Below, piece by piece: positions 11,813-49,174 of a stretch of DNA of 49,174 bases. Source of the stretch: an uncultured Pelagibacteraceae bacterium. Lineage in GTDB: Bacteria > Pseudomonadota > Alphaproteobacteria > Pelagibacterales > Pelagibacteraceae. The position numbers and the translations under genes are program-made. The notes below the pieces were generated by a model. The model was not told the origin of the DNA, did no database searches, and worked only from the letters and a program-made list of their open reading frames with translations. The DNA is taken from positions 1 through 49,174 of the forward strand of contig CACLQJ010000003.1 in NCBI GenBank assembly GCA_902609065.1. The letters are read 5' to 3'. Every line of letters starts with the position of its first letter. Positions within the stretch are counted from its first letter, which is position 1.

Positions 11813-12938
11813 CTATCTATTTTTTAACTCAGAAACTTTTCTGTGTTTATTTCCATTATAAGCTGCCAAAGGCCTAATAAGTTTATTCGTTGAAAGTTGC
11901 TCGATAATATGAGCTGACCATCCAGTTATTCTTGAAATTACAAAGATGGGTGTAAAAAAATCTGTATCGAATCCCATTAGGTGGTAGGTAGGACCTGTTG
12001 GATAATCAACATTTGGGTAAATGTTTTTTCTATCTATCATAACTTTTTCTACCGTGTCGTAAATTTTTTCAAATTTTTTATCTTTTTTAATTTTTGCCAC
12101 CTTACCAAAGTACTCTCTCATAGTAGGCACTCTTGAATCTCCACTTTTATAAACTCTGTGACCAAATCCCATAACAACATCTTTATTATCTAAAGCTTTA
12201 TTTATCCATTTTGAAGCATTTTCAGGTTTTTTAATTTTATTCATCATATGCATCACTTCTTCATTTGCACCACCATGCAAAGGACCTTTTAAACTTGCTA
12301 TAGCCCCGGTAATTGCTCCATGAATATCTGAAAGACTGCTTGTTATTGTTCTAGCTGTAAATGTTGAAACATTAAAACTATGTTCAGCGTATAAAATTAA
12401 TGAAACGTCAAATGCTTTGACGATATCTTTATTCGGAACTTTGCCAAAACACATGTAAAAAAAGTTTTCAGAAAAAGATAGTTTTTTTTTAGGTTGTATT
12501 ATTTTTTTTCCTTTTCTAGATCTATAAAAAGCAGCTAAAGCAACTGGTGTTTTTGCAAAAATTCTCATTACCTTTCTCATATTTGCTTTTGGTGAATTAT
12601 CTTTTGTTTCTTTGTCTTCTAGACCCATTATACTGACAGCTGTTCTTGCAACATCCATAGGATGAGCTTTTTTTGGAAAATTTTTTTATATCTTGTAGTA
12701 TGGTTTTAGAAAGCTTTCTTTCTTTCTTTTCTTGTTTTTCAAAATTTTTTAATTGTTTTTTATTTGGTAGCTCGCCATTCAATATCAGATAAGCAACCTC
12801 TTCAAATTTACAATTTGCGCAGAGGTCTTGTGCCGCGTAACCTCTATAAGTTAAAGAATTAATCTCAGGCATCACTTTAGATATTGAAGTTTCATCAACA
12901 GTAACTCCCATTAATCCTTTTTTGATATCTGTATTCAT
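11813..12938 (-). pseudogene. prpC: 2-methylcitrate synthase / citrate synthase-like, split by one frameshift near 12675..12687
   Basis: N-part LTYRGYAAQDLC and C-part AHPMDVARTAVS, LKGPLHGGANEEV, GFGHRVYK. Removing one base gives LQDIKKFPKKAHPMDVARTAVS. Confidence 0.8.
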
Positions 12939-13838
12939 TAATCGTGTCCTTCTGTACTAAAATTATAAATTTTTTCGTCTAACGAATTGTATTTTTCGTA
13001 CTCAACTAATTTGTACAATCTTTTTCTTGTTTGCATTTTATCTATTAAATTATTTTGGTGTCCATCATCAAAAATAGCACGTAGTCCATCTTCTACACTT
13101 TTCATGGCTAATCTTTGAGTTGTTACCGGATAAATCACTATATTAAATCCTAAATTTTCTAAAACGTTATAATCTAATATTTTAGATTTTCCAAATTCAG
13201 TCATATTTGCAAGCAAATATACATCTAATGATTTTCTCACAATTTCAAATTCTTTTTCATCTTTTAAAGCCTCTGGAAAAATTATTTCAGCTCCAGCATC
13301 TATGTAAGATTTACACCTATCAATCATTCTATCTAAACCTTCTACAGATTTAGCGTCAGATCTTGCTATAATTTTAAAATTTTTATCTTTCTTAGCTTTT
13401 ACACATTCTTTAATTTTTTAAACCATCTTTTTTTGTGAAATAAGCTCCTTGTTGTCAAGATGACCACATCTTTTTTGATCTATTTGGTCTTCTATATGAA
13501 CAGCAGTGATACCAAATTTTTTCAAAAGTTTTAATAGTTTTTGAGCAATTTCTAAAACCTGTATCTATATCTACAATAGTTGGAAGATTTGTAATTCTTG
13601 CTATTTGTTTTGATCTATTGCTTACGTCTTCAAGAGACGTTAATCCTATGTCTGGAAAACCTAGATCATTTGACATAACACCACCAGAAACATAAACCGC
13701 GTCATATCCAATTTCTTCTATTAACTTTGCTGTTAATGGATTGTATGCTCCAGGCACTCTTAAAATTTTCCCTGATTTTATTTTTTTAACAAAATCTTTC
13801 CTTTTATCCTTCACAGTTTTTTCAACGAAATGCATCAA
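12938..13838 (-). pseudogene. prpB: Methylisocitrate lyase (ICL/PEPM superfamily), two frameshifts (about 13421 and 13552..13557)
   Basis: PGAYNPLTAKLIEEIGYDAVYVSGGVMS, hidden-frame HIEDQIDQKRCGHLDNKELI, then IIARSDAKSVEGLDRMIDRCKSYIDAGAEIIFPE. Confidence 0.8.
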
Positions 13839-15338
13839 AAAATTCCTTTTTTTGAATTATTTTTTAATTTAGATTTTTTTATCTCAATGTTTAATTTTTT
13901 TATTTGTCCAGATTTAATTTTTTTCAAATTTTGAACTATTTTTAAAAATCTTTCACTATCCTTATTGCTAATAATATTTTTTGTTAAAGTTTTGAATTTA
14001 TTGATATAGTTTTTTCTTTTAAAAGGTCTAGAACCATATGGATGCGCATCTGCTCGCTCAAGTTCCTCAATAAATCTTTTACGATTATTCATTGTAATAA
14101 TAACCTTTGCTCCAAAACATTTTTTACTTGGATTTGGATCGTGATACTTTCTTGTCCATTTTTTATCTTCATGAGTTTTTATAGATCTCCAAATTTTTAT
14201 AGTACTTTTTCTTTTAGCTCTTGATTTAGAATATGATTTAACGTGGTGCCAATCTGCATCCTCAAGAGCAACAGCAAAAATGTACATAATAGAGTGATCC
14301 AAAGTTTCTCTGCTAGAATTTGGATCCATTTTTTGAGGATCATTAGCTCCAGTTCCGATTACATAATGTGTATGGTGACTAGTATAAATATCTATTTTTT
14401 TAATATTTTTTAGATTATCAATTTTTTTATTTAATTTTTTTGCAATATCTATTATCGCTTGGGCTTGATATTCCGCGGAATATTCCTTGGTATATGTTTC
14501 GAGAATTGCTTTTTTAGGCTCCCTTTTTTTTTGGGAGAGGGACTTTATATTTAGCTTTTTTTCCATCTAAAATTCTTGCAATAACACTATCTTCACCTTC
14601 ATAAATTGGACTTGGTGCACCTTCACCCCTCATAGCTCTATCTACAGCTTCAATTGCAAGTTTACCAGCATGTGCTGGAGCAAAAGCTTTCCAACTAGAT
14701 ATTTCCCCTTTTCTTGATTGTCGAGTAGATATTGTTGTGTGCAATGCTTGTTGTATTGACTGATAAACGGTTTCTGTATTTAGTTTAAGCATCGTACCGA
14801 TACCCGCCGCTACACTCGGACCTAAATGTGCTATATGATCAACCTTATGTTTGTGTAAGCAAATTCCCTTCACAAGATTTACTTGAACTTCATAAGCAGT
14901 GATTATACCTTTCAATAAATCTAATCCACTTCTATTTTTTTGTTGAGCTACAGCTAAAAGAGCAGGTATATTGTCACCAGGATGACTATAATCAGCAGCT
15001 AAAAATGTATCGTGAAAATCTAGCTCCCTGACCGCTGTGCCATTTGTCCAAGCTGACCATTCACTGTCAAAAAGTTTTTTTGAGCTTACTCCAAATATGG
15101 TTGCTCCATTTTTTCTTGGATGTTTCAAAGCCATTTCTCTAGATGTTACAACTGATTTACGATTTAAGGATGCAACAGCAACAGCGGCGTTATCTATAAT
15201 TCTGTTAATAGCCATCTCTATTGCATTATTATTCAACTTTGCATTATCAGTAGCAATTTCAGCAATTTTCCATGCAAGTTGTTTTTTTTTAGGTAAATAA
15301 ATTTTTGATGGATATACTTTTATGTTGTGAATTATCAA
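13835..15338 (-). pseudogene. prpD: 2-methylcitrate dehydratase (PrpD/MmgE family), frameshift at a 9-nt homopolymer (14524..14532); TTG start
   Basis: N-part [29 protein letters not shown] and C-part KEYSAEYQAQAIID, VALEDADWHH. Dropping one base gives [24 protein letters not shown]. Confidence 0.8.
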
Positions 15339-26701: not shown

Positions 26702-29107
26702 ATGAAAGTCTTATTAAAAAAATTTTTTATATCTACTCTCGTCTTAAATTTTATTATCTTATGTTTGCTAACAAGTTTTAACAAAAGTCTTTATGCAGCT
26801 GACAAATCTCTGTCATTTGATGGTACTGATGATTTTGTAGAAATTGCAGCTAATAACGTTTTAAATCCTACAGGTGATTACACAGTTGCAGCTTGGTTTA
26901 AACAAGAAGGTGAAACATCAGGAACACAAAATTGGCAATCAGTTGTTACTTCTCGACAAAAAAATAGCAATGGTGATGCGCAAGGTTATGTGATGTATTT
27001 AAGAATGTCAGATAGTAAACTTCAATATTGGAAGGGAATACCCGTTGGGAGTTGGGCAGTAATTGCAAGTAATGAACAAAGTACCTGGAAAACTAATGGA
27101 GGGGGGAACCCAGGAACTCCCGGTTGGAATCATTGGGTAATAAGATACAACGGTTCTAATCAAATGGATTTATTTTTAGATGGGGCATTCATACAATCTA
27201 CAACCTCTGAACTAAATTTGAATCGTCAAAACACGACTAGGCCTACAAGAATTGGTGCTGGTGCTACAGAAAACGCTGGTGCTTCATTTTTTTTTAAAGG
27301 GAAAATAGATGATGTTGCTGTTTGGGATGAGGCTCTGACAGATGCAGAAATTTCAGAATTATATAATGGTGGTGAAACACTTTATGCAAAGGAAAATTAT
27401 GGGGATTATTCCTCAAAAGATAATCTAGTAGCATACTATACTATGGATAGCGATAATGGAGCTGGCACAACATTAACTGATGATGAAGGAAATAATGATG
27501 GTAGTTTTGAAGGCGCTCCTTCCTGGAGTGATGATGTTCCGGGTACTCTCCCAACATTATCATCTTCTAATCCCTCAGATGGTCAAACAGATGTCCCTAT
27601 CGATACAAATATAGTTTTAACATTTAGTGAAATTGTTAGAGTTGGAACTGGAAATATAGTTTTACATAAAGCCAGCGATGACTCTGTTGTTGAAACTTTT
27701 GATGTCACAAGTGATGTTAGCGGATCAGAATCTACCCAAATAACTATTAATCCATCAGCAGATTTAGAAAAAGAAGTTGATTATTATGTAAAAATTGCCT
27801 CCACAGCAATTGTTGATTTATCTAATAACTCATATGCTGGTATTAGTGATACAACCACACTTAATTTTACGACAGGATCTTTACCTACAAACCCTCTAGA
27901 TGATAAAGATGTTGTTGGATTGATAGAGGCACAAACAGAGGCGCCAAAAAAAATAGTTACAGGTGTTACGACACCTATATTTAACAGACTTAATTGGATA
28001 AGAAGATATAGTTTGGGTGATGAATTATTGGCCCAAAAAATTAATTTTAATTTCAGTGATCCTAAATTAAATGATCTTTCAAAATTAATTTCACAATCCG
28101 TTGCCACCACTAAACCTAAAAAGAAAATTTCAGACAGCTGGCTCTTTTGGAGTGAAGGAAGTGTTAGTGTTGGAACTGTTGATGCTACATCCAAATCATC
28201 TAAAAAAAATATTGATACTAATGCTGTTACATTGGGAATGGATAAAAAAATTAATAATCAATCAGTACACGGATACACTATTACATATATTCAAGAAGAT
28301 GCTAAAGTAGGAGATAAAGGTACGTCTAGTGATATAGATTCTTATAGTTTTTCATTATACAGAGCATTTAATCAAGGTAGTAATAATTACTTTGAGGGAG
28401 TTCTTGGACTAAGTAAACTAGATATTAAAAATTTAAGAAAAAGCGGAAGTAATACTTTAACTGGGTCTAGAAATGGAAAACAAATTTTTGGCTCATTACA
28501 AGCTATAAAGACTTTTAAAAACAAACAAGCCGAAGTATCTCCTAATTTAAGACTAGATCTTGGTTATACAATATTAGATGAATATAGCGAGAAAGGAACC
28601 AATCCATTAAAATACGACGAACAAACAGTAGAGACTGTTGGATTATATGGTGGGTTTAATTTAAGCAATCAAATATCTAAAGAAGATTACACTATTAGAC
28701 CTTCTTTTGCTTTAGAGCTGGGATATGATTTAAGTCCTAATTCAGATGTTTCTTTAAATTATGTTTCTGATCCTAACACTAAGTTTACAAAATCAATAGA
28801 TCAAGAAGATGATAAAAGTATTAAAGGTAAAGTTGGATTTGATGTGGTTAATGACACTGGACCATCAATGATGTTTTTTTATGAAAGAGTTGAAACTGAA
28901 GATAGTCATAGCGATACTTATTATTTTACAGTAGGTTATGTTACGCATAGAAAAGATGAATTTTCTCTAGGATTAGTCGATCAAACAGCTTCAGCAACTT
29001 ACAAAAAAACAATAAATGGTTTAGATGTTTCATTAAATTCTGAATATGACGTATTAGAGAAATTCCCAGACTATGAAATAAATTTAAATATTGCTAGCAA
29101 GTTTTAG
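26702..29107 (+). CDS. Secreted LamG + Ig-like (Big_5/SbsA-like) surface protein with C-terminal autotransporter-like beta-barrel, copy A
   Basis: Signal peptide; LamG-like LSFDGTDDFVEIAANNVLNPTGDYTVAAWFK...GKIDDVAVWDEALTDAEISELYNGG; Ig-like SSSNPSDGQTDVPIDTNIVLTFSE; barrel ending in SKF. Confidence 0.85.
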   Translation: MKVLLKKFFISTLVLNFIILCLLTSFNKSLYAADKSLSFDGTDDFVEIAANNVLNPTGDYTVAAWFKQEGETSGTQNWQSVVTSRQKNSNGDAQGYVMYLRMSDSKLQYWKGIPVGSWAVIASNEQSTWKTNGGGNPGTPGWNHWVIRYNGSNQMDLFLDGAFIQSTTSELNLNRQNTTRPTRIGAGATENAGASFFFKGKIDDVAVWDEALTDAEISELYNGGETLYAKENYGDYSSKDNLVAYYTMDSDNGAGTTLTDDEGNNDGSFEGAPSWSDDVPGTLPTLSSSNPSDGQTDVPIDTNIVLTFSEIVRVGTGNIVLHKASDDSVVETFDVTSDVSGSESTQITINPSADLEKEVDYYVKIASTAIVDLSNNSYAGISDTTTLNFTTGSLPTNPLDDKDVVGLIEAQTEAPKKIVTGVTTPIFNRLNWIRRYSLGDELLAQKINFNFSDPKLNDLSKLISQSVATTKPKKKISDSWLFWSEGSVSVGTVDATSKSSKKNIDTNAVTLGMDKKINNQSVHGYTITYIQEDAKVGDKGTSSDIDSYSFSLYRAFNQGSNNYFEGVLGLSKLDIKNLRKSGSNTLTGSRNGKQIFGSLQAIKTFKNKQAEVSPNLRLDLGYTILDEYSEKGTNPLKYDEQTVETVGLYGGFNLSNQISKEDYTIRPSFALELGYDLSPNSDVSLNYVSDPNTKFTKSIDQEDDKSIKGKVGFDVVNDTGPSMMFFYERVETEDSHSDTYYFTVGYVTHRKDEFSLGLVDQTASATYKKTINGLDVSLNSEYDVLEKFPDYEINLNIASKF

Positions 29108-29128
29108 TTAGGATTTTTTATAAGAAAT
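29108..29128. repeat. Copy of the grxD 3' end, identical to 31668..31688
   Basis: ttaggattttttataagaaat occurs at both positions (21/21). At 31668 it is the grxD stop plus C-terminal codons on the minus strand. Confidence 0.75.
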
Positions 29129-29161
29129 TTGTTAGAATTAATACTTAAATAATCATCTTAT

Positions 29162-29212
29162 CCAATAACAATTAAACCTAATATAGTCATAGAATATTAA
29201 TCTAGATAATCT
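29162..29212 (+). repeat. Intergenic fossil of the rpsD 3' end
   Basis: CCAATAACAATTAAACCTAATATAGTCATAGAATATTAATCTAGATAATCT; reads PITIKPNIVIEY*SR* against S4 [15 protein letters not shown]. Confidence 0.85.
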
Positions 29213-29259
29213 TTAAAAAACCTTTAATAATGTGTCCTTTATTTTAAGAATAGATATGC

Positions 29260-31671
29260 ATGATTTCTTTTTTATATAAACTGTCCTGTATAAAATTTAA
29301 AAAAATCATAATTTTAATAATATTTTTTTTTACCCCTATAAATAATTTATTAGCTGGAGACTTTTCATTAGAATTTGATGGGACAGACGATTATGTTGAG
29401 GTACCTTTTCATGCAACAATGAATCCTGCAGACGACTTTTCTGTTAATGCTTGGGTAAAAACACAAGACAACACTGATTGGCAATCTACAGTCACATCTA
29501 GAGAAAGAGGCTCAGGCTATATGTTATATCAAAGAAACACAGATCAATGGGCTTTTTGGACTGGAAAAAATAGAGGAAGCGCTTCATGGAATTCAGGTAA
29601 TACCACAACAGATCCTGTATATGGCACATGGCAAATGCAAACAGTTACGTACGATCATTCCGAGACGAAGATGAGACTTTATATTGATGGAGTTGAATTA
29701 AGTTTTCAAAATGCTGATTGTTGTAATTCTGCTGTCGTTGAAAATATAAGTAAACCATTAAGAATAGCAGCGGGCAGGACTAATGATAATCCTCCATTTG
29801 CTGCAGGTGATCCATATTATTTTAAGGGACACATCGACGAAGTAGCAATTTGGAACGTACCATTATCATCTGCTGAGATAACACAGCTATTTAATTCCGG
29901 AGAAACTTTATATGCAGGAGAAAATCATGGTAATTATATATCTGCATCCGGTTTACAAGAATATTGGACTATGGATACAATAGTGAGTGGAGAAAATAAT
30001 GGATCAGGTACAAAATTATATGGAGAATTAAATAATAATGATGGTGATTTTTTAGGAGCACCTACATGGAGCACCGATACCCCAGGTACTTCGCCAACTA
30101 TATCATCCAGATCCCCAGACGATAATGCATCAAATGTAGCCGACGATACCAATATAGTGATAACTTTTAGTGAAACAATAAAATTAAATACTGGAAATAT
30201 TTTTTTAAAAAAATCTAATGATGATAGTATAGTTGAAACATTTGATGTTAGTTCAGATATAACATTGTCAGCTTCTAATCAAATTACAATTAATCCTTCA
30301 TCTAATCTAGAACCAAAAACAGATTATTACATATTTATTGATGCTTCAGCAATTATAGATATTTCAAGAAACCACTTTGACGGAATTGGTGATCCGTTGG
30401 TAAGTGTAGGAGATAAAACTACTTACAATTTTTCAACTGGTACTAGCTCCTCAAATCCATTAGATGATAATGACGTAATAGGATTAATAGAAGCACAAAC
30501 AGATGCTTCAAAAAAAGTAGTAAGTCGTATTACAAATCCTATATTTAACAGACTTAACTGGATAAGAGGCTACAGTTTAGAAGATGATTTAAGGGCTCAA
30601 AAAATTAATTTTGAATTTGATGACCCAAAAATAGCAAGACTTTCCAAATTTATCACTCAATCTGTTAGTTATGACGCCCCGCAAAAAAAAATATTAGATA
30701 GTTGGTCATTTTGGAGTGAAGGAAGTGTGGGAGTTGGATCTGTCAATGCTTCAAATGATGCTTCAAAAAAAGATATCAATACTAATGCTGTAACACTAGG
30801 GATGGATAAAAAAATTGATAAAAAAACAGTGCGCGGTTTCACTTTTACTTATACACAAGAAGATGTTGACGTTGGCAATTTAGGAACATCCTCAGATATA
30901 GATTCTTATAGTTTTTCTTTTTATAGAACAATTAATAAAACTAAAAACCTCTTTTTAGAAAGTGTATTAGGCATAAGCAAACTTAATATAGAAAATACAA
31001 GAATTAGTGGGAGCAATACCTTAAATGGCAATAGAAATGGTAAGCAGGTTTTTGGCTCTTTACAATACATAAATATATTTGAAAAAAATAATTCTGATAT
31101 TTCACCAAATATGAGATTAGATGTTAGTCACACAATTTTAAATGATTATAAAGAAATAGGCACAATGCCACTTAACTTTGATGAACAAACAGTTGAAAAT
31201 ATTGGATTGTATGGTGGTATTAATTTTAAAAATGAAATTCCTAAGAATAATTACATTCTAAGACCTTCAGTAGGACTTGAACTTGGTTTAGATCTAAGTC
31301 CCAGTTCTGATATTTCAATAAATTATGTTTCTGACCCAAATACAAAGTATACAAAATCTATTGATCAAGATGATGAAAAAAGTATTAAAGGTAAAGTTGG
31401 ATTTGATGTGGTTAATGACTCTGGACCATCAATGATGTTTTTTTATGAGAGAGTTGAAACTGAAGATAGTCACAGTGATACCTTATATTTTTTAGTAGGA
31501 TATGTTACGAATAGAAAAGATGAATTTGCTTTAGAATTAGTAGATCATACAGCCACAGTTGCTTACAAACAAAATATAAATGGTTTAGATATTACATTAA
31601 GTTCTGAAAATGATGTATTTAAAGAATATTCTAATTACGAAATAAATTTAAATGTTGCTAGCAAGTTTTAG
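29260..31671 (+). CDS. Secreted LamG + Ig-like surface protein with C-terminal autotransporter-like beta-barrel, copy B
   Basis: Full-length paralog of 26702..29107 with the same domain order and terminal SKF. Confidence 0.85.
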   Translation: MISFLYKLSCIKFKKIIILIIFFFTPINNLLAGDFSLEFDGTDDYVEVPFHATMNPADDFSVNAWVKTQDNTDWQSTVTSRERGSGYMLYQRNTDQWAFWTGKNRGSASWNSGNTTTDPVYGTWQMQTVTYDHSETKMRLYIDGVELSFQNADCCNSAVVENISKPLRIAAGRTNDNPPFAAGDPYYFKGHIDEVAIWNVPLSSAEITQLFNSGETLYAGENHGNYISASGLQEYWTMDTIVSGENNGSGTKLYGELNNNDGDFLGAPTWSTDTPGTSPTISSRSPDDNASNVADDTNIVITFSETIKLNTGNIFLKKSNDDSIVETFDVSSDITLSASNQITINPSSNLEPKTDYYIFIDASAIIDISRNHFDGIGDPLVSVGDKTTYNFSTGTSSSNPLDDNDVIGLIEAQTDASKKVVSRITNPIFNRLNWIRGYSLEDDLRAQKINFEFDDPKIARLSKFITQSVSYDAPQKKILDSWSFWSEGSVGVGSVNASNDASKKDINTNAVTLGMDKKIDKKTVRGFTFTYTQEDVDVGNLGTSSDIDSYSFSFYRTINKTKNLFLESVLGISKLNIENTRISGSNTLNGNRNGKQVFGSLQYINIFEKNNSDISPNMRLDVSHTILNDYKEIGTMPLNFDEQTVENIGLYGGINFKNEIPKNNYILRPSVGLELGLDLSPSSDISINYVSDPNTKYTKSIDQDDEKSIKGKVGFDVVNDSGPSMMFFYERVETEDSHSDTLYFLVGYVTNRKDEFALELVDHTATVAYKQNINGLDITLSSENDVFKEYSNYEINLNVASKF

Positions 31672-40061: not shown

Positions 40062-42692
40062 TTAGAATTTAGTAGAAACTCCTAAATTCAATTCGTAATT
40101 TGGATCGATACCTACTAAGTCATATTCTGAAGTTAAATTAATATCAAAATAATCTAATTTCCTATTAAATTTAAAATTCGCTAATCCATTTTTTATATTG
40201 GCTTCGTATCCAACATTATCTTCTGGCACATACCCAACCCCTAAAGATAAAGTATCGCTATAACCATTTGTATTTTGATTCCTTTTATAGAGCAATATAA
40301 GTGAAAAACCATTATTTGAAGTTAAGTCAAAACCTAAATTTGTATTCAATAATTTTTCGTTTTTATGATCAATAGATTTTATGAAAACAGTGTTTGGATT
40401 TGAAACATAGTTAAGCTTAACTTCTGATGATGGACTTATATCTAATCCAATTTCTATTCCTCCATTAGGTTTAACAGTAAAGTTTTCGAAATCAATTGTA
40501 TTACTTAATATAAATCCTGAATAAATGTTTGTAGTTTGAACATTTTGTTTTTGAAATGTTAAAGCTGACGTCCCAATTTCACTATATTCATCTAAGCTAG
40601 TGTCACTAAAATCTATTTTTATGTTAGGGCTAAAATTAAAGTTTTCTCCACCTATAATACCAAGATATTTTATTGATCCATAAACCTGTCTTCCGTTCCT
40701 TGATCCTTTTAGCTCTTTAGCCCCATCAACTCTCAAACTTTCTAGATTTAATAAGTTAAATCCAATAACGGTTTCAAAATGTTTATTTAAATCTGTCGGG
40801 TAATTACCATAGATGGAAAAACTCTTTGCATTTGTATCTAATGTGGTGCCAGTTTCACCTACATCAACACCATCTTTGTTAAATCTAAATGCATATCCGA
40901 TTGTAAGATCATTATTTAATAACTTGTCCATACCAAGTGTAACACCATCACTTCTTACTTCTTTTGACGCTGATAATGATGTATCACCAACTCTACCGAT
41001 ACTTACGCTTCCTTCACTCCAGAACAACCATTTACTCAGTTCATCAGAAGTATTTTTTGAATTTTCAATCGACTCATTAGAAACTTGCAATGCATTATTT
41101 AATTTATTTAGTGTTGAATTGGAAAACTTTATTTTTAATTTTTGAACCAATAAATTATTTCCCTTTTTATGTTCTTTTAACCAATATAAACGATTAAAAA
41201 TTGGTGTAGTAATGTGTTGGACCAAATCTTTTGGTGTTTGGGTTTGTGCCTCTATTAAAGCAACAACTTGTTTATTTAGTAATGGATTTGGATTTGATGA
41301 CACAGCAGTTCCTTCGGTTGTAAAGTTCAGCGATGTGCCATCTGTTATTCCTGCATAGTCTTTGCTCGAAGCATCATCAAATGCATCATCTTCTATATTT
41401 AAATAATAGCATGTGCCCTGATCTAATGTTACGTCCGGGTTTATTGTGATAGTTTCACCTCCAGAACCTGAAACTTTACTTCCTCTCACATCTATAGTTT
41501 CAACTGTGGAGTTATCTGAACATTTTTTTATAAAAATATTTCCACCAATTTCTGCATCAACAGCCTCAGAAAAAGTTAAAGTGATATTACTATCAACCTC
41601 AATATCAGTAGCATTATCAGCGGGAGAAGACGATGAAAGTATAGGCGCAACATCAATAACCTGATAAGGCACACTTAAACTATACTCTAGAATAAATTGT
41701 CTATTACTATTATTTATATGTTGACCAGTTGAAACAAAAAATTTTGTTCCGTCGTTGTTAAAACTAATATGTGTTGCAACCCCGGACAGTGATGAATTAC
41801 TTACACCGGCGCTTCTGTATTTAGTTCTTATACCCTCAGTATCATTCCCGTCAAATGCACCTTCGTACGTTATAGTGGAATCTAAATCGTAGGCTGTTGA
41901 AAGTGTGTATTGATGTATATCATCAAGAGCCGATTCTACGACATATAATCTGGTTCCATCATTATTAAAGGCAATTCCATTAATACTATCAAAACTATTT
42001 TCTGTTGGGTGAAAATTTGCATCATTATAAGTTGCAGTCGATATTAAAAAATTTGTAGATAAATCAAACTCATATATTGTATCTGTGTTTAGATTAGTTA
42101 GAAAAACTTTAGATCCATCATCATTAAAAACAATACCACTTGCACTTTGAGCATTATTATCTTCAACATCAGAAACTCCTCCATTATCAATTTGAATACC
42201 TTTAGGATCTATCGCTGTAACACCCCCAGGAACGTTAAATGCTGAGTCTACATCTAGCTGACAAACAGCTAAATGAGTACTTCCACCTCTCTGTAATTTA
42301 TTTGAAATAAATAATCTCGTCCCATCATTGTTAAAAGTTAATCCTTCAGGTTGCTGAAAACTACCATGAGTAGCATTAGATCCAGGTCCACACAAAGTTT
42401 TAACTCTTATATCAAGAGAGGTTGAAGAACCTGTTATTGTCGACAAGTCAAATCCAGTCGATAACTGGTAACGAAAAACTTTATCTATGGCTGAAGTGTT
42501 TACACCGTTACCTTTAGCTTGCGAGGATGATATATGAAGTATTGTACCATCCGAATTCCAAGTATGCCCAGTAAGCTGCCGCGCCTCATGAAATTGTGCT
42601 GATCTAACAAATGTAGCATCTGAAAAAACATTTGAGGATATTGAAATCAGAATTAAAATTTTAGATAAAACTATTAGAAAATTTTTTATCAT
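40062..42692 (-). CDS. Secreted beta-propeller-repeat + Ig-like surface protein with C-terminal autotransporter-like beta-barrel, copy C
   Basis: Signal peptide; repeated (I/L)xFNNDGT(R/K)x(Y/F)(V/I)xx...YxLSTxxDL units; Ig-like SSSPADNATDIEVDSNITLTFSEAV; barrel shared with copies A/B, ending STKF. Confidence 0.85.
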   Translation of the reverse strand: MIKNFLIVLSKILILISISSNVFSDATFVRSAQFHEARQLTGHTWNSDGTILHISSSQAKGNGVNTSAIDKVFRYQLSTGFDLSTITGSSTSLDIRVKTLCGPGSNATHGSFQQPEGLTFNNDGTRLFISNKLQRGGSTHLAVCQLDVDSAFNVPGGVTAIDPKGIQIDNGGVSDVEDNNAQSASGIVFNDDGSKVFLTNLNTDTIYEFDLSTNFLISTATYNDANFHPTENSFDSINGIAFNNDGTRLYVVESALDDIHQYTLSTAYDLDSTITYEGAFDGNDTEGIRTKYRSAGVSNSSLSGVATHISFNNDGTKFFVSTGQHINNSNRQFILEYSLSVPYQVIDVAPILSSSSPADNATDIEVDSNITLTFSEAVDAEIGGNIFIKKCSDNSTVETIDVRGSKVSGSGGETITINPDVTLDQGTCYYLNIEDDAFDDASSKDYAGITDGTSLNFTTEGTAVSSNPNPLLNKQVVALIEAQTQTPKDLVQHITTPIFNRLYWLKEHKKGNNLLVQKLKIKFSNSTLNKLNNALQVSNESIENSKNTSDELSKWLFWSEGSVSIGRVGDTSLSASKEVRSDGVTLGMDKLLNNDLTIGYAFRFNKDGVDVGETGTTLDTNAKSFSIYGNYPTDLNKHFETVIGFNLLNLESLRVDGAKELKGSRNGRQVYGSIKYLGIIGGENFNFSPNIKIDFSDTSLDEYSEIGTSALTFQKQNVQTTNIYSGFILSNTIDFENFTVKPNGGIEIGLDISPSSEVKLNYVSNPNTVFIKSIDHKNEKLLNTNLGFDLTSNNGFSLILLYKRNQNTNGYSDTLSLGVGYVPEDNVGYEANIKNGLANFKFNRKLDYFDINLTSEYDLVGIDPNYELNLGVSTKF

Positions 42693-43889: not shown

Positions 43890-46013
43890 ATGAAAAAAGT
43901 TTTAATAACCTTATTTTTTAGTCTCATAGTTGCAACTGAAGCATTTGCCATTTTAACATTTAATCAAGAGAAAGTTGTAACGACGCAAACAGATCAAATT
44001 AGAGGGATTAACTTTAAACCAGACGGAACAATAATGTATGTTACTGAGCGGAATGGTACAACAGGTAGCGATATAGGACGTGCGGTTAATATTATACAAT
44101 ATACTTTGACTACACCTTTTGATATTAGTACAGCAATAGAAGCTTCAAATACTAGAGTCGAAGAGGTGGATGGTGTTAATTTAGCATTTTTGCCTCATGC
44201 AATCGAATTCAAACCCGATGGAACACGTTTATTTTTAATTGCGAATACAGGTACCAAAGTTTATCAGTTTGATCTCTCTACACCTTGGGACACATCAACA
44301 ATTACATTCAGTGCTAAATATAACGTCACAGGCGAAGACCAATTAAGAACTTTAACTTTTAAACCCGACGGAAAAAGAATGTATGTATCTGGAAAAGACA
44401 ATCATAAATTAAAAGAATATATTTTAACAAATGCTTGGGATATTACTTCATCAAATGTTTCAGTAGGTGCAGTATCAGCATCTTTAGTAAGTGCTGATAA
44501 TAATATGAGAAATGTTCAATTTAATTCATTAGGAACCGAACTATACGTTGGTGGGAACCAAAATAATAATATGAACAAATTTACTTTAAGTTCAGCTTGG
44601 GATATTAGTACGATCTCTTCTAGTTTTACCGCATATTCTTTAAGTGGTGATCATTCGAATATGAGAGGTTTTATTTTTGCTCAAAAGTTTTCAAGATTAT
44701 ATGTTACAGATGATATTGATGCTGGTGATAATAGAGTTATAGAATATTTAGCTTCGTGTAGTTTCACTTTAAATTGTGAAGACGCAAGTAAAGATGAAAA
44801 TGTCATTTCTTTATTAGAGTCACAGGTCGAACTTTCAAAAAGAGTTATAAAACATAATACATTGCCTATTATGCGACGTATAAAGTGGTTAAGACGTCAC
44901 AAAAATTATGATGATTTGAATAATTTACAAGCGCAAATTAGTTTTTCAGATCAAAGATTAGCTAAATTAGTTGATACAATTAAACCAAATATAAAACGAG
45001 AAAAAAGAAAAAAAGACGATGAGTGGTTTAAATGGAATGAAGGAAGAATTGGAATTGGTAAAACTAATGCAAAATCAGGCTCATTGTCTAGAAACATTCA
45101 TACATCGGGATTTGTTGTTGGTGCCGATAGAAGAAAAGGTGAAGATATCATGCATGGTTATGCATTTCAATTTGGTGTCGAGAACATAGATGTAATTCCC
45201 TCTTTATCTGGCATTTTTGCAAAAACATATAGTTTATCCATGTACGGAACAAGACTAATTGACTCAAATTTTTTAACAAATGCTATAATTGGAATTAATC
45301 ATATAGATCTTAATATAAAGAGAGAGGAAAACACCACTATTCTTGAAGGCAGTAGAAATGGAAATCAGATTTATGGAACTATTAATTTTGGCAAAAGAAT
45401 CAATAAGGAAAATTATAATTTAATACCAAATATCAAATTGGATTTAGGATACACAAGACTGGATGAGTATGAAGAAGAAAACCAATTCGGAACAACAACA
45501 GATACCTTATTATTTAAAAAGCATGAAATAATTAGTGGTTTCGGAACTGTAGGTTTGCTTTTAGACAAAACCGTTAGACACTATGAGGATAGAATAATTA
45601 ATCATACAGGTAAATTTGAATATATAATCGACTTTAGTCCCACATCAGATGCCGATTTTTATTATGTAAATGATCCTAGCACAATGTTCTCAATTAATAT
45701 TGATGAAGAGGCACATCAAAATTTTAGAATAGGTTATGGTTTTGATGTAACTTACGAAAGTGGATGGTCATTAATTGCTAATTTTGAAAGATTTCATGCT
45801 ATAAGTAGTGGATATATAAATGAGATTTATTTTTCAGCTGGTTATGTACCAACAGAAAATATTAAATTCGCAATGGCTTTAAAAAATGATAATGCTTCAC
45901 TAAATTATAATAAAATTATAAGTGGTTTTAATATTAAATTAGGTTCAAATTACAATCTACTCAGTCAAATACCAGAATACGGGGCTACAATAGAAGTGGC
46001 AAGTAAGTTCTGA
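43890..46013 (+). CDS. Secreted beta-propeller-repeat surface protein with C-terminal autotransporter-like beta-barrel, copy D
   Basis: Signal peptide; FKPDGTxxY(V)...QYTLTTPFDISTA repeats; barrel landmarks GSRNGNQIYG, LDLGYTRLDEYEE, YVNDPSTMF, terminal SKF. Confidence 0.83.
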   Translation: MKKVLITLFFSLIVATEAFAILTFNQEKVVTTQTDQIRGINFKPDGTIMYVTERNGTTGSDIGRAVNIIQYTLTTPFDISTAIEASNTRVEEVDGVNLAFLPHAIEFKPDGTRLFLIANTGTKVYQFDLSTPWDTSTITFSAKYNVTGEDQLRTLTFKPDGKRMYVSGKDNHKLKEYILTNAWDITSSNVSVGAVSASLVSADNNMRNVQFNSLGTELYVGGNQNNNMNKFTLSSAWDISTISSSFTAYSLSGDHSNMRGFIFAQKFSRLYVTDDIDAGDNRVIEYLASCSFTLNCEDASKDENVISLLESQVELSKRVIKHNTLPIMRRIKWLRRHKNYDDLNNLQAQISFSDQRLAKLVDTIKPNIKREKRKKDDEWFKWNEGRIGIGKTNAKSGSLSRNIHTSGFVVGADRRKGEDIMHGYAFQFGVENIDVIPSLSGIFAKTYSLSMYGTRLIDSNFLTNAIIGINHIDLNIKREENTTILEGSRNGNQIYGTINFGKRINKENYNLIPNIKLDLGYTRLDEYEEENQFGTTTDTLLFKKHEIISGFGTVGLLLDKTVRHYEDRIINHTGKFEYIIDFSPTSDADFYYVNDPSTMFSINIDEEAHQNFRIGYGFDVTYESGWSLIANFERFHAISSGYINEIYFSAGYVPTENIKFAMALKNDNASLNYNKIISGFNIKLGSNYNLLSQIPEYGATIEVASKF

Positions 46014-46098: not shown

Positions 46099-46184
46099 GC
46101 CCTCGTGGTGAAATTGGTAGACACAAAGGACTTAAAATCCTTGCCCTTTTGGGAGTGCCAGTTCGAGTCTGGCCGAGGGCACCA
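46099..46184 (+). tRNA. tRNA-Leu (anticodon UAA), CCA encoded
   Basis: Acceptor gccctcg/cgagggc, anticodon stem-loop aagga-cttaaaa-tcctt, long variable arm (gcccttttgggagtgc), T-arm gttcgagtc, acca end. Confidence 0.95.
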
Positions 46185-46189
46185 CTAAA

Positions 46190-47071
46190 ATGAAAGTTTT
46201 CGATTGTATCACCTATTACAACGAACCCATGCTTTTTGATTTGAGACTAAATATGCTCAATAACTATGTGGATAAATTTATTGTTATCGAAGCAAAACAT
46301 TCTCATAGTGGAAAAAAAAAGAAACTAAATTTTAATATTGAAGATCATAAACAATTTAAAGATAAAATTATTTACAAAGTTATTGAAAACGAACCAGATG
46401 GTATAATAGAAATTAATCAATCAGATACTCCAATAAATCAAAGTAATCAAAAAAGACACAATAGTTTAAAAAGAATAGAGCAATCTTACGATACTGCAAC
46501 TAAATGTTTGAAAGACGCAAGTCCAGAAGACATATTTACTTTAAATGATAGTGACGAAATACCCAAATATGAAAACTTTGATTTTAAAAACATAAGAAAC
46601 AATATTCTTATTGCCAAGCTTAAACTATGTTATTTTAAGTTTAATTTATATTATGATTTGCATCCATGGTACGGTACGAGAGCATGTAAAATTAAAAATT
46701 TATTAAGTCCAACATGGCTTAAATATCTTAAACCAAAAAAATATCCCTTTTGGCGTTTAGATACTTTTTTTTCGAAAACAAAATATTCAAACATAAAAAT
46801 TATTGATGATGGTGGATGGCATTTTTCAAATTTAAAATCACCTGAGGAAATAGAGGACAAAATGCTTAATTTTGGACATCATAATGAAGTTGAGGATAGT
46901 GGATTGGGTTTAAAAGATATAAAATCTATGATTAATGAAAAAAAAGTAATATTTGCACATAACAGAAAGCCTGATGACCCAAGTGTTAATTTATCAAAAT
47001 TATCTAATCAACAATTGCCCCTATACATCACAAATAATTTGGATAAGTATCAAAGTTGGTTAGATGAATAA
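46190..47071 (+). CDS. Glycosyltransferase family 17-like (MGAT3-like) protein
   Basis: MKVFDCITYYNEPMLFDLRLNMLNNYVDKFIVIEAKHSHSGKKK...DASPEDIFTLNDSDEIP, GGWHFSNL. Confidence 0.85.
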   Translation: MKVFDCITYYNEPMLFDLRLNMLNNYVDKFIVIEAKHSHSGKKKKLNFNIEDHKQFKDKIIYKVIENEPDGIIEINQSDTPINQSNQKRHNSLKRIEQSYDTATKCLKDASPEDIFTLNDSDEIPKYENFDFKNIRNNILIAKLKLCYFKFNLYYDLHPWYGTRACKIKNLLSPTWLKYLKPKKYPFWRLDTFFSKTKYSNIKIIDDGGWHFSNLKSPEEIEDKMLNFGHHNEVEDSGLGLKDIKSMINEKKVIFAHNRKPDDPSVNLSKLSNQQLPLYITNNLDKYQSWLDE

Positions 47072-47075
47072 TTAA

Positions 47076-47837
47076 ATGAAACTTAAAAAAAATAATTATC
47101 AATTAATGTTAGATGATTATCTGGCTTATTTGAAAAAAAAAAATTTTTTTGAAAAAAAAAATCAAATTTTTTATGAAAATACAGTTGAAAAGTTACATAA
47201 TTGGAAAAACACAGATATCAAGAAAATTATAAAATGGTACGAAAATATTAGAAAGATAGATAAAAGCAAAGTTTTCTCTATACATTTGGAAAAATTAAAT
47301 AAGTGGAATTTTAATAAAAAACAAGGAAATATTACACATAAAAGTAAAAAATTTTTTATCGTGGAAGGCAAAAGAGTTTTAAATTCAAAAAGAGAAATAT
47401 CAAGTTGGGATCAACCATTCCTAACTCAAGTTGGTTTTAAAGGAGGTATTATTGGACTAGTGAGGTGTAAAATTAAAAGTTTACCCCATTATTTAATTGA
47501 TGCAAAATTTGAGCCGGGCAATTATAAAGATATTCAATTAAGTCCGTCCCTACAAGGAACCTATTCGAATTTAGATAGAGTTCACCATGGTGAAAGAAAT
47601 AAAGTTTTAAACAAGTTTTTTAAAAAAAATTTTAAAACTATAAAAAAAATGTGGGTAACAGAAGATGGCGGAAGATTATTTAGAAAAAGAAATTTACACT
47701 GGATAATAGAGTATAAAGGAAAACCTTTACTCCCAAGCAAACGATATAAATGGTTAACATTGTGGGAAATAAATAATTTAATCAAACACGGACCTATAGT
47801 AGGACCACATTTAAGAGCAATATTAAGCTTATTATAA
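47076..47837 (+). CDS. NDP-hexose 2,3-dehydratase-like protein, half-length (single repeat)
   Basis: REISSWDQPFLTQVGFKGGIIGLVRC, LIDAKFEPGNYKDIQLSPSLQGTYSN, YKWLTLWEINNLI, HLRAILSLL resemble one repeat of EvaA-type enzymes. Confidence 0.75.
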   Translation: MKLKKNNYQLMLDDYLAYLKKKNFFEKKNQIFYENTVEKLHNWKNTDIKKIIKWYENIRKIDKSKVFSIHLEKLNKWNFNKKQGNITHKSKKFFIVEGKRVLNSKREISSWDQPFLTQVGFKGGIIGLVRCKIKSLPHYLIDAKFEPGNYKDIQLSPSLQGTYSNLDRVHHGERNKVLNKFFKKNFKTIKKMWVTEDGGRLFRKRNLHWIIEYKGKPLLPSKRYKWLTLWEINNLIKHGPIVGPHLRAILSLL

Positions 47838-47839
47838 AA

Positions 47840-48781
47840 ATGAAAACGAAAACTCTTGGAATTATAGGCCCTGGATACCACTTTGAAAAAAATATAATAT
47901 CTGTCTTAAAAAAAAATAATAGTATAAAAATTTCTGGAATTTTAAGAAATAAAAAAAACAACTTCAAAAATTATAAAACTTTGAGTGAATATGATTTTTT
48001 TAAAAAAAAATATGACTTTGTATATATTAGTTGTCCGAACAAACTTCATGAAAAATTTATAATAAAATCGTTAAAGTCAAATTATAATGTAATTTGTGAA
48101 AAACCATTTCTTACTAATGATAAAAAAATTAATGAAATTTTAAATTTATCCAAAAAAAATAAAAAATTAATATTTGAGGCATTTATGCATTTATATCACC
48201 CTGCATATGATAAACTAAAAAAAATCATAAAAGATAAAAAGATAGGAAAATTAAAATATGTTGTTTCAAATTTTAGATTTCCATCTTTGAACAGTAAAAA
48301 TCAAAGATACAAAAAAAATTTAGGAGGAGGTTTTTTTTATGATACAGCAGTTTATTTAATATCATTAGAGAATTACTTATTTAATAATACATCGCTTAAT
48401 AAAAAAAATATTGAACAGTTTAATATCACAAAAAAAATAGACTTAAGAGGTTATTTTGTCATTAAAAGTAAAAATTTTAATAGATTTTACTTTTGGGGAG
48501 AGGGTCAAAATTATACTAATAATATAGAATTATTTACCAAAGACTGCTCAATTTATGTAGATAGATTTTTTAGTAAAATAAAAAATAAACCAACAATCAT
48601 TAAGATATTTGATAAACATAAAGTTAAATCAATTAAGATTGATAAAAAAGTAGATCATTTTAGAAATATGTTTGATGAAATATTAAAAAATTATCACAAA
48701 ACATCGTTTCAAAACTACCATAGGTATAAAATTCATAACCAATTAAAATTGATAAATAAACTAGGTCATATTAAAATTTAA
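47840..48781 (+). CDS. Gfo/Idh/MocA-family oxidoreductase
   Basis: LGIIGPGYHFEKNII, VYISCPNKLHEKFIIKSLKSNYNVICEKPF, LIFEAFMHLYHPAYDKLKKII, GGGFFYDTAVY. Confidence 0.85.
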   Translation: MKTKTLGIIGPGYHFEKNIISVLKKNNSIKISGILRNKKNNFKNYKTLSEYDFFKKKYDFVYISCPNKLHEKFIIKSLKSNYNVICEKPFLTNDKKINEILNLSKKNKKLIFEAFMHLYHPAYDKLKKIIKDKKIGKLKYVVSNFRFPSLNSKNQRYKKNLGGGFFYDTAVYLISLENYLFNNTSLNKKNIEQFNITKKIDLRGYFVIKSKNFNRFYFWGEGQNYTNNIELFTKDCSIYVDRFFSKIKNKPTIIKIFDKHKVKSIKIDKKVDHFRNMFDEILKNYHKTSFQNYHRYKIHNQLKLINKLGHIKI

Positions 48782-48791
48782 TTATTAATTT

Positions 48792-49174
48792 ATGAAAAAA
48801 ATTCAAATAATTTCTGATAATAATAATAAATCTGTCAAAATACGAAATGTAATATCCCGTAAGTTAGTTAAAAATCTGAAACTTAAATACAATATTGTAA
48901 TTGTAATAGGTGGAGATGGCTTTATGCTGCAAACTTTAAAAAAAAACATAAGTAAAAATAAATATTTTTATGGAATTAATTCTGGAAACTACGGTTTTTT
49001 GATGAATAAATTTTCTCCAAAAAATTTAATTAATAAATTAAACAAATTAAAATCAACTTCAATTTCACCTTTAGAAATGAAAGTTAAGAATAAAAATAAT
49101 AAAATAAAAAAGTATTTAGCAATAAACGAAGTTTCAATTTTACGACAAAGTAGACAGGCAGCATCGATATCAAT
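48792..49174 (+). CDS. NAD kinase, 3' truncated by window edge
   Basis: Open frame from ATG 48792: MKKIQIISDNNNKS...YNIVIVIGGDGFMLQTLKK...FYGINSGNYGFLMN; GGDGxML and GxNxGxxGFL motifs. Confidence 0.85.
   Translation, partial: MKKIQIISDNNNKSVKIRNVISRKLVKNLKLKYNIVIVIGGDGFMLQTLKKNISKNKYFYGINSGNYGFLMNKFSPKNLINKLNKLKSTSISPLEMKVKNKNNKIKKYLAINEVSILRQSRQAASIS

Follow-up and report, generated by a model that had tools for sequence, protein, structure and literature searches.

A three-gene SAR11 cassette with a single-domain 2,3-dehydratase probably carries out 2-deoxygenation in a nucleotide-sugar pathway

A three-gene cassette in an uncultured SAR11 bacterium probably encodes the enzymes for 2-deoxygenation in a pathway to a nucleotide sugar. 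The cassette consists of a family 17 glycosyltransferase (GT17), a single-domain NDP-hexose 2,3-dehydratase and a probable Gfo/Idh/MocA 3-ketoreductase, and it is inserted at a site flanked by tRNA-Leu(taa) and nadK. Its dehydratase, which we take on sequence grounds to be un-duplicated and probably homodimeric, looks like the un-duplicated form of the doubled enzymes of antibiotic makers. The stretch of DNA that we analysed (the window) is an entire contig of 49,174 bases, and loci close to it come from uncultured Pelagibacteraceae (SAR11) assemblies; the genome to which it belongs (G000) amounts to 743 kb in 42 contigs and is 62% complete.

The dehydratase has one domain and both catalytic glutamates

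The dehydratase gene (positions 47076–47837, forward strand) encodes 253 amino acids and matches Pfam family PF03559 with an E value of 2.3e-46. By both sequence and fold, the protein is related to EvaA, the dTDP-4-keto-6-deoxyglucose 2,3-dehydratase of Amycolatopsis orientalis (PDB 4j7g and 4j7h). The single PF03559 match covered the whole profile at residues 50–253 and scored 158 bits against a cut-off of 25, in agreement with the initial annotation, which had called the protein a half-length 2,3-dehydratase; the family motifs that it listed are all present (WDQPFLTQ, GIIGL, AKFEPGN, QLSPSLQGTYSN and WLTLWEI). EvaA was also the sole meaningful sequence relative among solved structures. Whereas EvaA has two homologous halves in one chain, the window dehydratase has one domain, and because the same stretch of it matched both halves of 4j7g, the N-half better (80.6 bits, compared with 53.1 bits for the C-half), we regard it as the equivalent of one half.

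EvaA requires E139 and E190, both in pocket A; its other half contains pocket B, which has been described as an inactive leftover of gene duplication (reviewed in PMC8987622). Both glutamates are aligned in the window dehydratase, E139 with E146 (codon 47511–47513, forward strand) and E190 with E196 (codon 47661–47663, forward strand), so the loss of active-site residues that had been raised as a possible objection was not seen. These two residues are invariant in 16 aligned SAR11 single-domain proteins and in 20 of the 20 single-domain proteins (hereafter singles) of our domain alignment.

A three-gene cassette beside tRNA-Leu(taa)

The gene that follows (47840–48781, forward strand; 313 amino acids) starts 2 bp downstream of the dehydratase gene and encodes a probable sugar 3-ketoreductase. 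It belongs, as had been proposed, to the Gfo/Idh/MocA family (PF01408, E value 5e-13; PF22725). Its top named match among solved structures was KijD10 (PDB 3rbv and the mutant entries 3rc7, 3rc9 and 3rcb), at an overall similarity that was low (about 58 bits across residues 57–246). The Lys that was changed in 3rc9 and 3rcb corresponds to K88 of the window reductase, and the Tyr changed in 3rc7 corresponds to Y172. The KijD10-type features, a Rossmann domain (PF01408) and the active-site Lys and Tyr, are thus both present, which argues against a different reductase clade. A Gfo/Idh/MocA gene likewise follows the dehydratase gene in several actinobacterial plasmid clusters (L057, L060 and L065).

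The first gene of the cassette encodes GT17 (46190–47071, forward strand; 293 amino acids; PF04724, E value 1.6e-15) and is conserved in four related loci (L011, L012, L021 and L086), which have the order GT17, dehydratase, reductase and nadK in common with the window. On the left, the cassette is bordered by tRNA-Leu(taa) (46099–46184, forward strand; ARAGORN), which precedes it in all four of the loci scanned (the window, L011, L012 and L021). On the right lies the start of nadK, encoding NAD kinase (48792–49174, forward strand; NF003406, 1.4e-36), which is cut by the contig end. All 10 cassette-free genomes examined have tRNA-Leu(taa) and nadK side by side, with no gene separating them. The interval from tRNA-Leu(taa) to nadK (46184–48792) is an insertion site, empty in these 10 SAR11 genomes and filled in the window and at least four others.

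Because nadK lies directly beside tRNA-Leu(taa) in cassette-free genomes, it is a border gene and the cassette comprises three genes. A part for NAD kinase in the pathway was ruled out on the same observation. The initial pairing of dehydratase with reductase therefore holds in that the two genes adjoin, but the unit is one of three genes, GT17 included. A search for the repeated end of a tRNA integration found no 12-mer of tRNA-Leu(taa) that recurs downstream in the window.

On another contig of the window genome (C7; L028, 3064–4652), a C-methyltransferase gene (PF08484) adjoins a gene for a small cupin-like protein in a polysaccharide region. A pair resembling these two genes follows nadK in L011.

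Proposed pathway and nucleotide-sugar supply

In the pathway that we propose, RmlA and RmlB, whose genes lie outside the window, would produce dTDP-4-keto-6-deoxyglucose, to judge from the activities of their families. The dehydratase would then remove water at C2/C3 to give an unstable 3,4-diketo-2,6-dideoxy sugar, and the adjoining reductase would reduce C3, two steps suggested by the conserved catalytic residues and by the pairing of the genes. A 4-reductase or an aminotransferase may finish the sugar, and a glycosyltransferase, perhaps GT17, may place it on a surface glycan. If this is true, it would point to 2-deoxy sugars in one of the most abundant bacterial groups of the ocean and also in phage genomes.

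The initial annotation had suggested looking outside the window for NDP-4-keto-6-deoxyhexose synthesis genes, and RmlA and RmlB were found there, together with RmlC, on contig C9 of the window genome. All three scored above the NCBIfam cut-offs (RmlA, 363.5 against 360.65 bits; RmlB, 423.3 against 365.1 bits). RmlD-domain matches in this 62% complete genome reached 64.1 bits at best; some of them fell on other members of the SDR group, RmlB included, and no match was linked to the cassette. A strong RmlB match was present in 12 of 12 dehydratase-bearing genomes tested, as against 81 of 149 in a genus sample; with the 11 known carriers removed, the latter figure was 70 of 138 (Fisher p = 5e-4, a rough value, with further carriers possible among the negatives). 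RmlA, RmlB and RmlC occur in about half of related genomes, where they could serve rhamnose alone.

As for the carrier, we favour dTDP first and CDP second from the gene content. The same chemistry on a CDP-linked substrate, with CDP-4-keto-6-deoxyglucose coming from enzymes of the RfbF/RfbG type, is unlikely, although it could account for a cluster in genome G672, in which an RfbF-like gene lies next to a dehydratase 63% identical to that of the window and which includes a CDP-glucose 4,6-dehydratase above the cut-off, and for a partial RfbF-like match in the window genome (190 bits, below the cut-off, at the end of contig C12). However, CDP-glucose 4,6-dehydratase was not found in G000, G037, G150, G151 or G820, all of which have a window-type cassette. 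RmlA and RmlB are present in the window genome, and dTDP sugars are the substrates of the characterised family members named in PMC8987622, which also argues for dTDP.

The G672 cluster itself (L084, 4273–10198) groups a window-type dehydratase and reductase with the RfbF-like gene, the CDP-glucose 4,6-dehydratase and a DegT-like aminotransferase, and would be an unusual CDP-linked use of the PF03559 family.

Half-length dehydratases across SAR11

PF03559 was found in 1 of 399 genomes of a Pseudomonadota sample, namely the window genome itself, which has one such gene, and in 27 of 397 Pelagibacterales genomes. When the 27 were divided by open-frame length, 17 had the single-domain form and 10 had the two-domain form (one with a broken frame). 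A half-length dehydratase of 227–253 amino acids was present in 19 further loci (longest-start reading), and that of L011 extends to 260 amino acids from an earlier TTG.

Several of these genes lie within larger clusters. Three loci (L013, L014 and L015) have a block with a glycosyltransferase, RmlB-like, RmlA, RmlC, RmlD-like, C-methyltransferase, the half-length dehydratase and the reductase, the gene families of which were tested in L014. A fourth locus (L017) has this same gene order as far as the dehydratase, at the contig end, and in L016 the order is RmlB, RmlA, DegT aminotransferase, dehydratase and reductase. Two-domain SAR11 relatives have neighbours of kinds like those of the singles, as judged from ORF sequences. 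Because 17 of the 27 dehydratase-bearing Pelagibacterales genomes have the half form, some of them inside a complete dTDP-deoxysugar block, we conclude that the half length is not a truncation.

Pathways of the dTDP-L-mycarose type lead to 2,6-dideoxy-3-C-methyl sugars. From their gene set, with all the Rml-type genes, the C-methyltransferase, the 2,3-dehydratase and the reductase in a row, we infer that the L013–L015 blocks encode a pathway to a sugar of this kind. By contrast, the window cassette has only the dehydratase and the reductase of that set, and the C-methyltransferase and cupin genes of the window genome sit apart from it, on C7.

Plasmid-encoded family members were two-domain in 10 of 11 proteins. 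The eleventh, from Pseudonocardia alni, was rejected as a comparable single-domain member, as it is a shortened two-domain gene between transposases. Our literature search, which drew mostly on papers available without subscription, found no description of single-domain family members.

Signatures of both halves are united in the singles

We cut 22 two-domain proteins into halves and aligned them with 20 singles. An RE motif (RE..WxQ) at the columns of R106 and E107 of the window dehydratase (codons 47391–47396, forward strand) was present in 22 of 22 C-halves and 20 of 20 singles, and in no aligned N-half; in the N-half of EvaA, an RE directly precedes the W but lies two positions beyond these columns, perhaps by chance. 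The C-halves also keep an acidic residue (E/D) at position 196, followed by E at 197 and by GGR at 198–200. The N-halves, by contrast, keep K144, N149, Q154, S156, T162, S164, H170, G172, K204 and N206 (86–100%), and the C-halves mostly do not. All 20 singles have the RE motif, E(E/D)G(G/A)R and EPG(N/D), plus T162, S164, H170, G172 and K204, with the N-half and C-half sets interleaved along the chain. In comparison with EvaA, the window dehydratase thus combines, in one domain, the catalytic set with the RE and E(E/D)GGR residues typical of C-halves.

This union of N-half and C-half signatures is, at the level of sequence, the pattern of an un-duplicated enzyme, and its simplest reading would be that a complete single domain was duplicated and that complementary loss followed. 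In the tree, which was unrooted and had three groups, the singles formed a clan of their own apart from the N- and C-halves, and AU tests with constrained trees rejected no alternative grouping. Because an unrooted tree of three groups cannot order duplication and loss, we used the signature split in its place. The term ancestral-type, applied to the enzyme at the outset, finds separate support in the signatures united in the singles, although the tree tests alone do not decide it.

The half-length protein might instead be a remnant, a two-domain dehydratase that has lost its C-half and is reduced or inactive as an enzyme. A grouping of the singles with SAR11 N-halves is compatible with the tree tests (p-AU = 0.279), and the average likeness of the singles to N-halves (34% and 31%) exceeds that to C-halves (25% and 24%). 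Yet N-halves have neither RE nor E(E/D)G(G/A)R, both of which are interleaved with N-half residues in the singles, so a remnant would need to have regained C-half features. In addition, the only broken two-domain gene that we saw (L037, genome G682) has a 256-amino-acid ORF with AKxEPGN that lacks both RE and E(E/D)GGR, and it shows what C-half loss leaves. The singles, for their part, are kept in many genomes with their catalytic residues intact, and we consider a remnant quite improbable.

We consider it likely that the un-duplicated enzyme forms a homodimer with a common active site, in which each chain has the residues that are split between N-half and C-half in two-domain enzymes. A more specific model, which we rate as slightly less likely than not, is that the SAR11 and phage singles represent the family in its still un-duplicated state and act as homodimers, with AKxEPGN, TxSN, HxG and K204 coming from one chain and RE (R106 and E107) and E(E/D)GGR from the partner. 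In two-domain enzymes such as EvaA, the C-half might then supply its RE motif (R315 and E316 of EvaA by alignment) to the N-half pocket and be no mere leftover. If true, the singles would show how a key deoxysugar step ran before the duplication known from antibiotic producers, and point mutations could reveal what the second half, supposed to be dead, contributes.

Predicted fold

An AlphaFold2 model of the dehydratase, built from 13 aligned single-domain proteins (mean pLDDT 75.8, pTM 0.71), had four EvaA chains as its top fold matches in the PDB (E values 4.2e-13 to 6.5e-12; TM 0.64–0.65 over the query). NUDT5, GDP-mannose hydrolase and other Nudix hydrolases ranked next, but that the window protein is a Nudix-type nucleotide-sugar hydrolase instead of a dehydratase is extremely improbable, as these matches are far weaker (E value 8e-5 against 4e-13, at about 11% identity), Pfam gives PF03559 and no Nudix hydrolase family, and the gene is paired with a 3-ketoreductase, with a full deoxysugar set alongside in relatives. 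NUDT5-like enzymes are homodimers.

Single-domain dehydratases in phage contigs

When IMG/VR was searched with the alignment of singles, 12 contigs matched (L066–L077). In the seven with ORFs listed, a dehydratase ORF of 242–276 amino acids lies among glycosyltransferase and nucleotide-sugar genes, and C-methyltransferase-like, RmlC-like, DegT-like or reductase genes are found near it. Seven phage-encoded singles have RE, EPGN, T162, H170, G172, EDGGR and K204. Both signature sets are complete in four of the seven; in the remaining three (L069, L073 and L075), residue 164 is D and residue 206 is V.

Two records have genes that support a phage origin, namely a UvsX-like recombinase, a single-strand binding protein and a baseplate wedge in the record behind L067 and a clamp loader in that behind L069; the record behind L076 has an exonuclease match. 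The T4-type major capsid protein (PF07068) was not found in the phage contigs by a search that gave none in a control either, and INPHARED phages gave no match to either the SAR11 or the phage query. Deoxysugar and glycosyltransferase genes have been described in pelagimyophages, in a paper in which the word 'dehydratase' is absent (PMC7029224).

Other features of the window

Elsewhere in the window, methylcitrate-cycle-like ORFs (citrate synthase-like, lyase-like and PrpD-like; 11813–15338) are split over different frames as if by frameshifts, and may be pseudogenes or assembly errors. Large ORFs of 707–876 amino acids that resemble each other lie at 26702–31671, 40062–42692 and 43890–46013. 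The last of these has an autotransporter beta-domain at its end, and its relatives adjoin the GT17–dehydratase–reductase cassette in L012.
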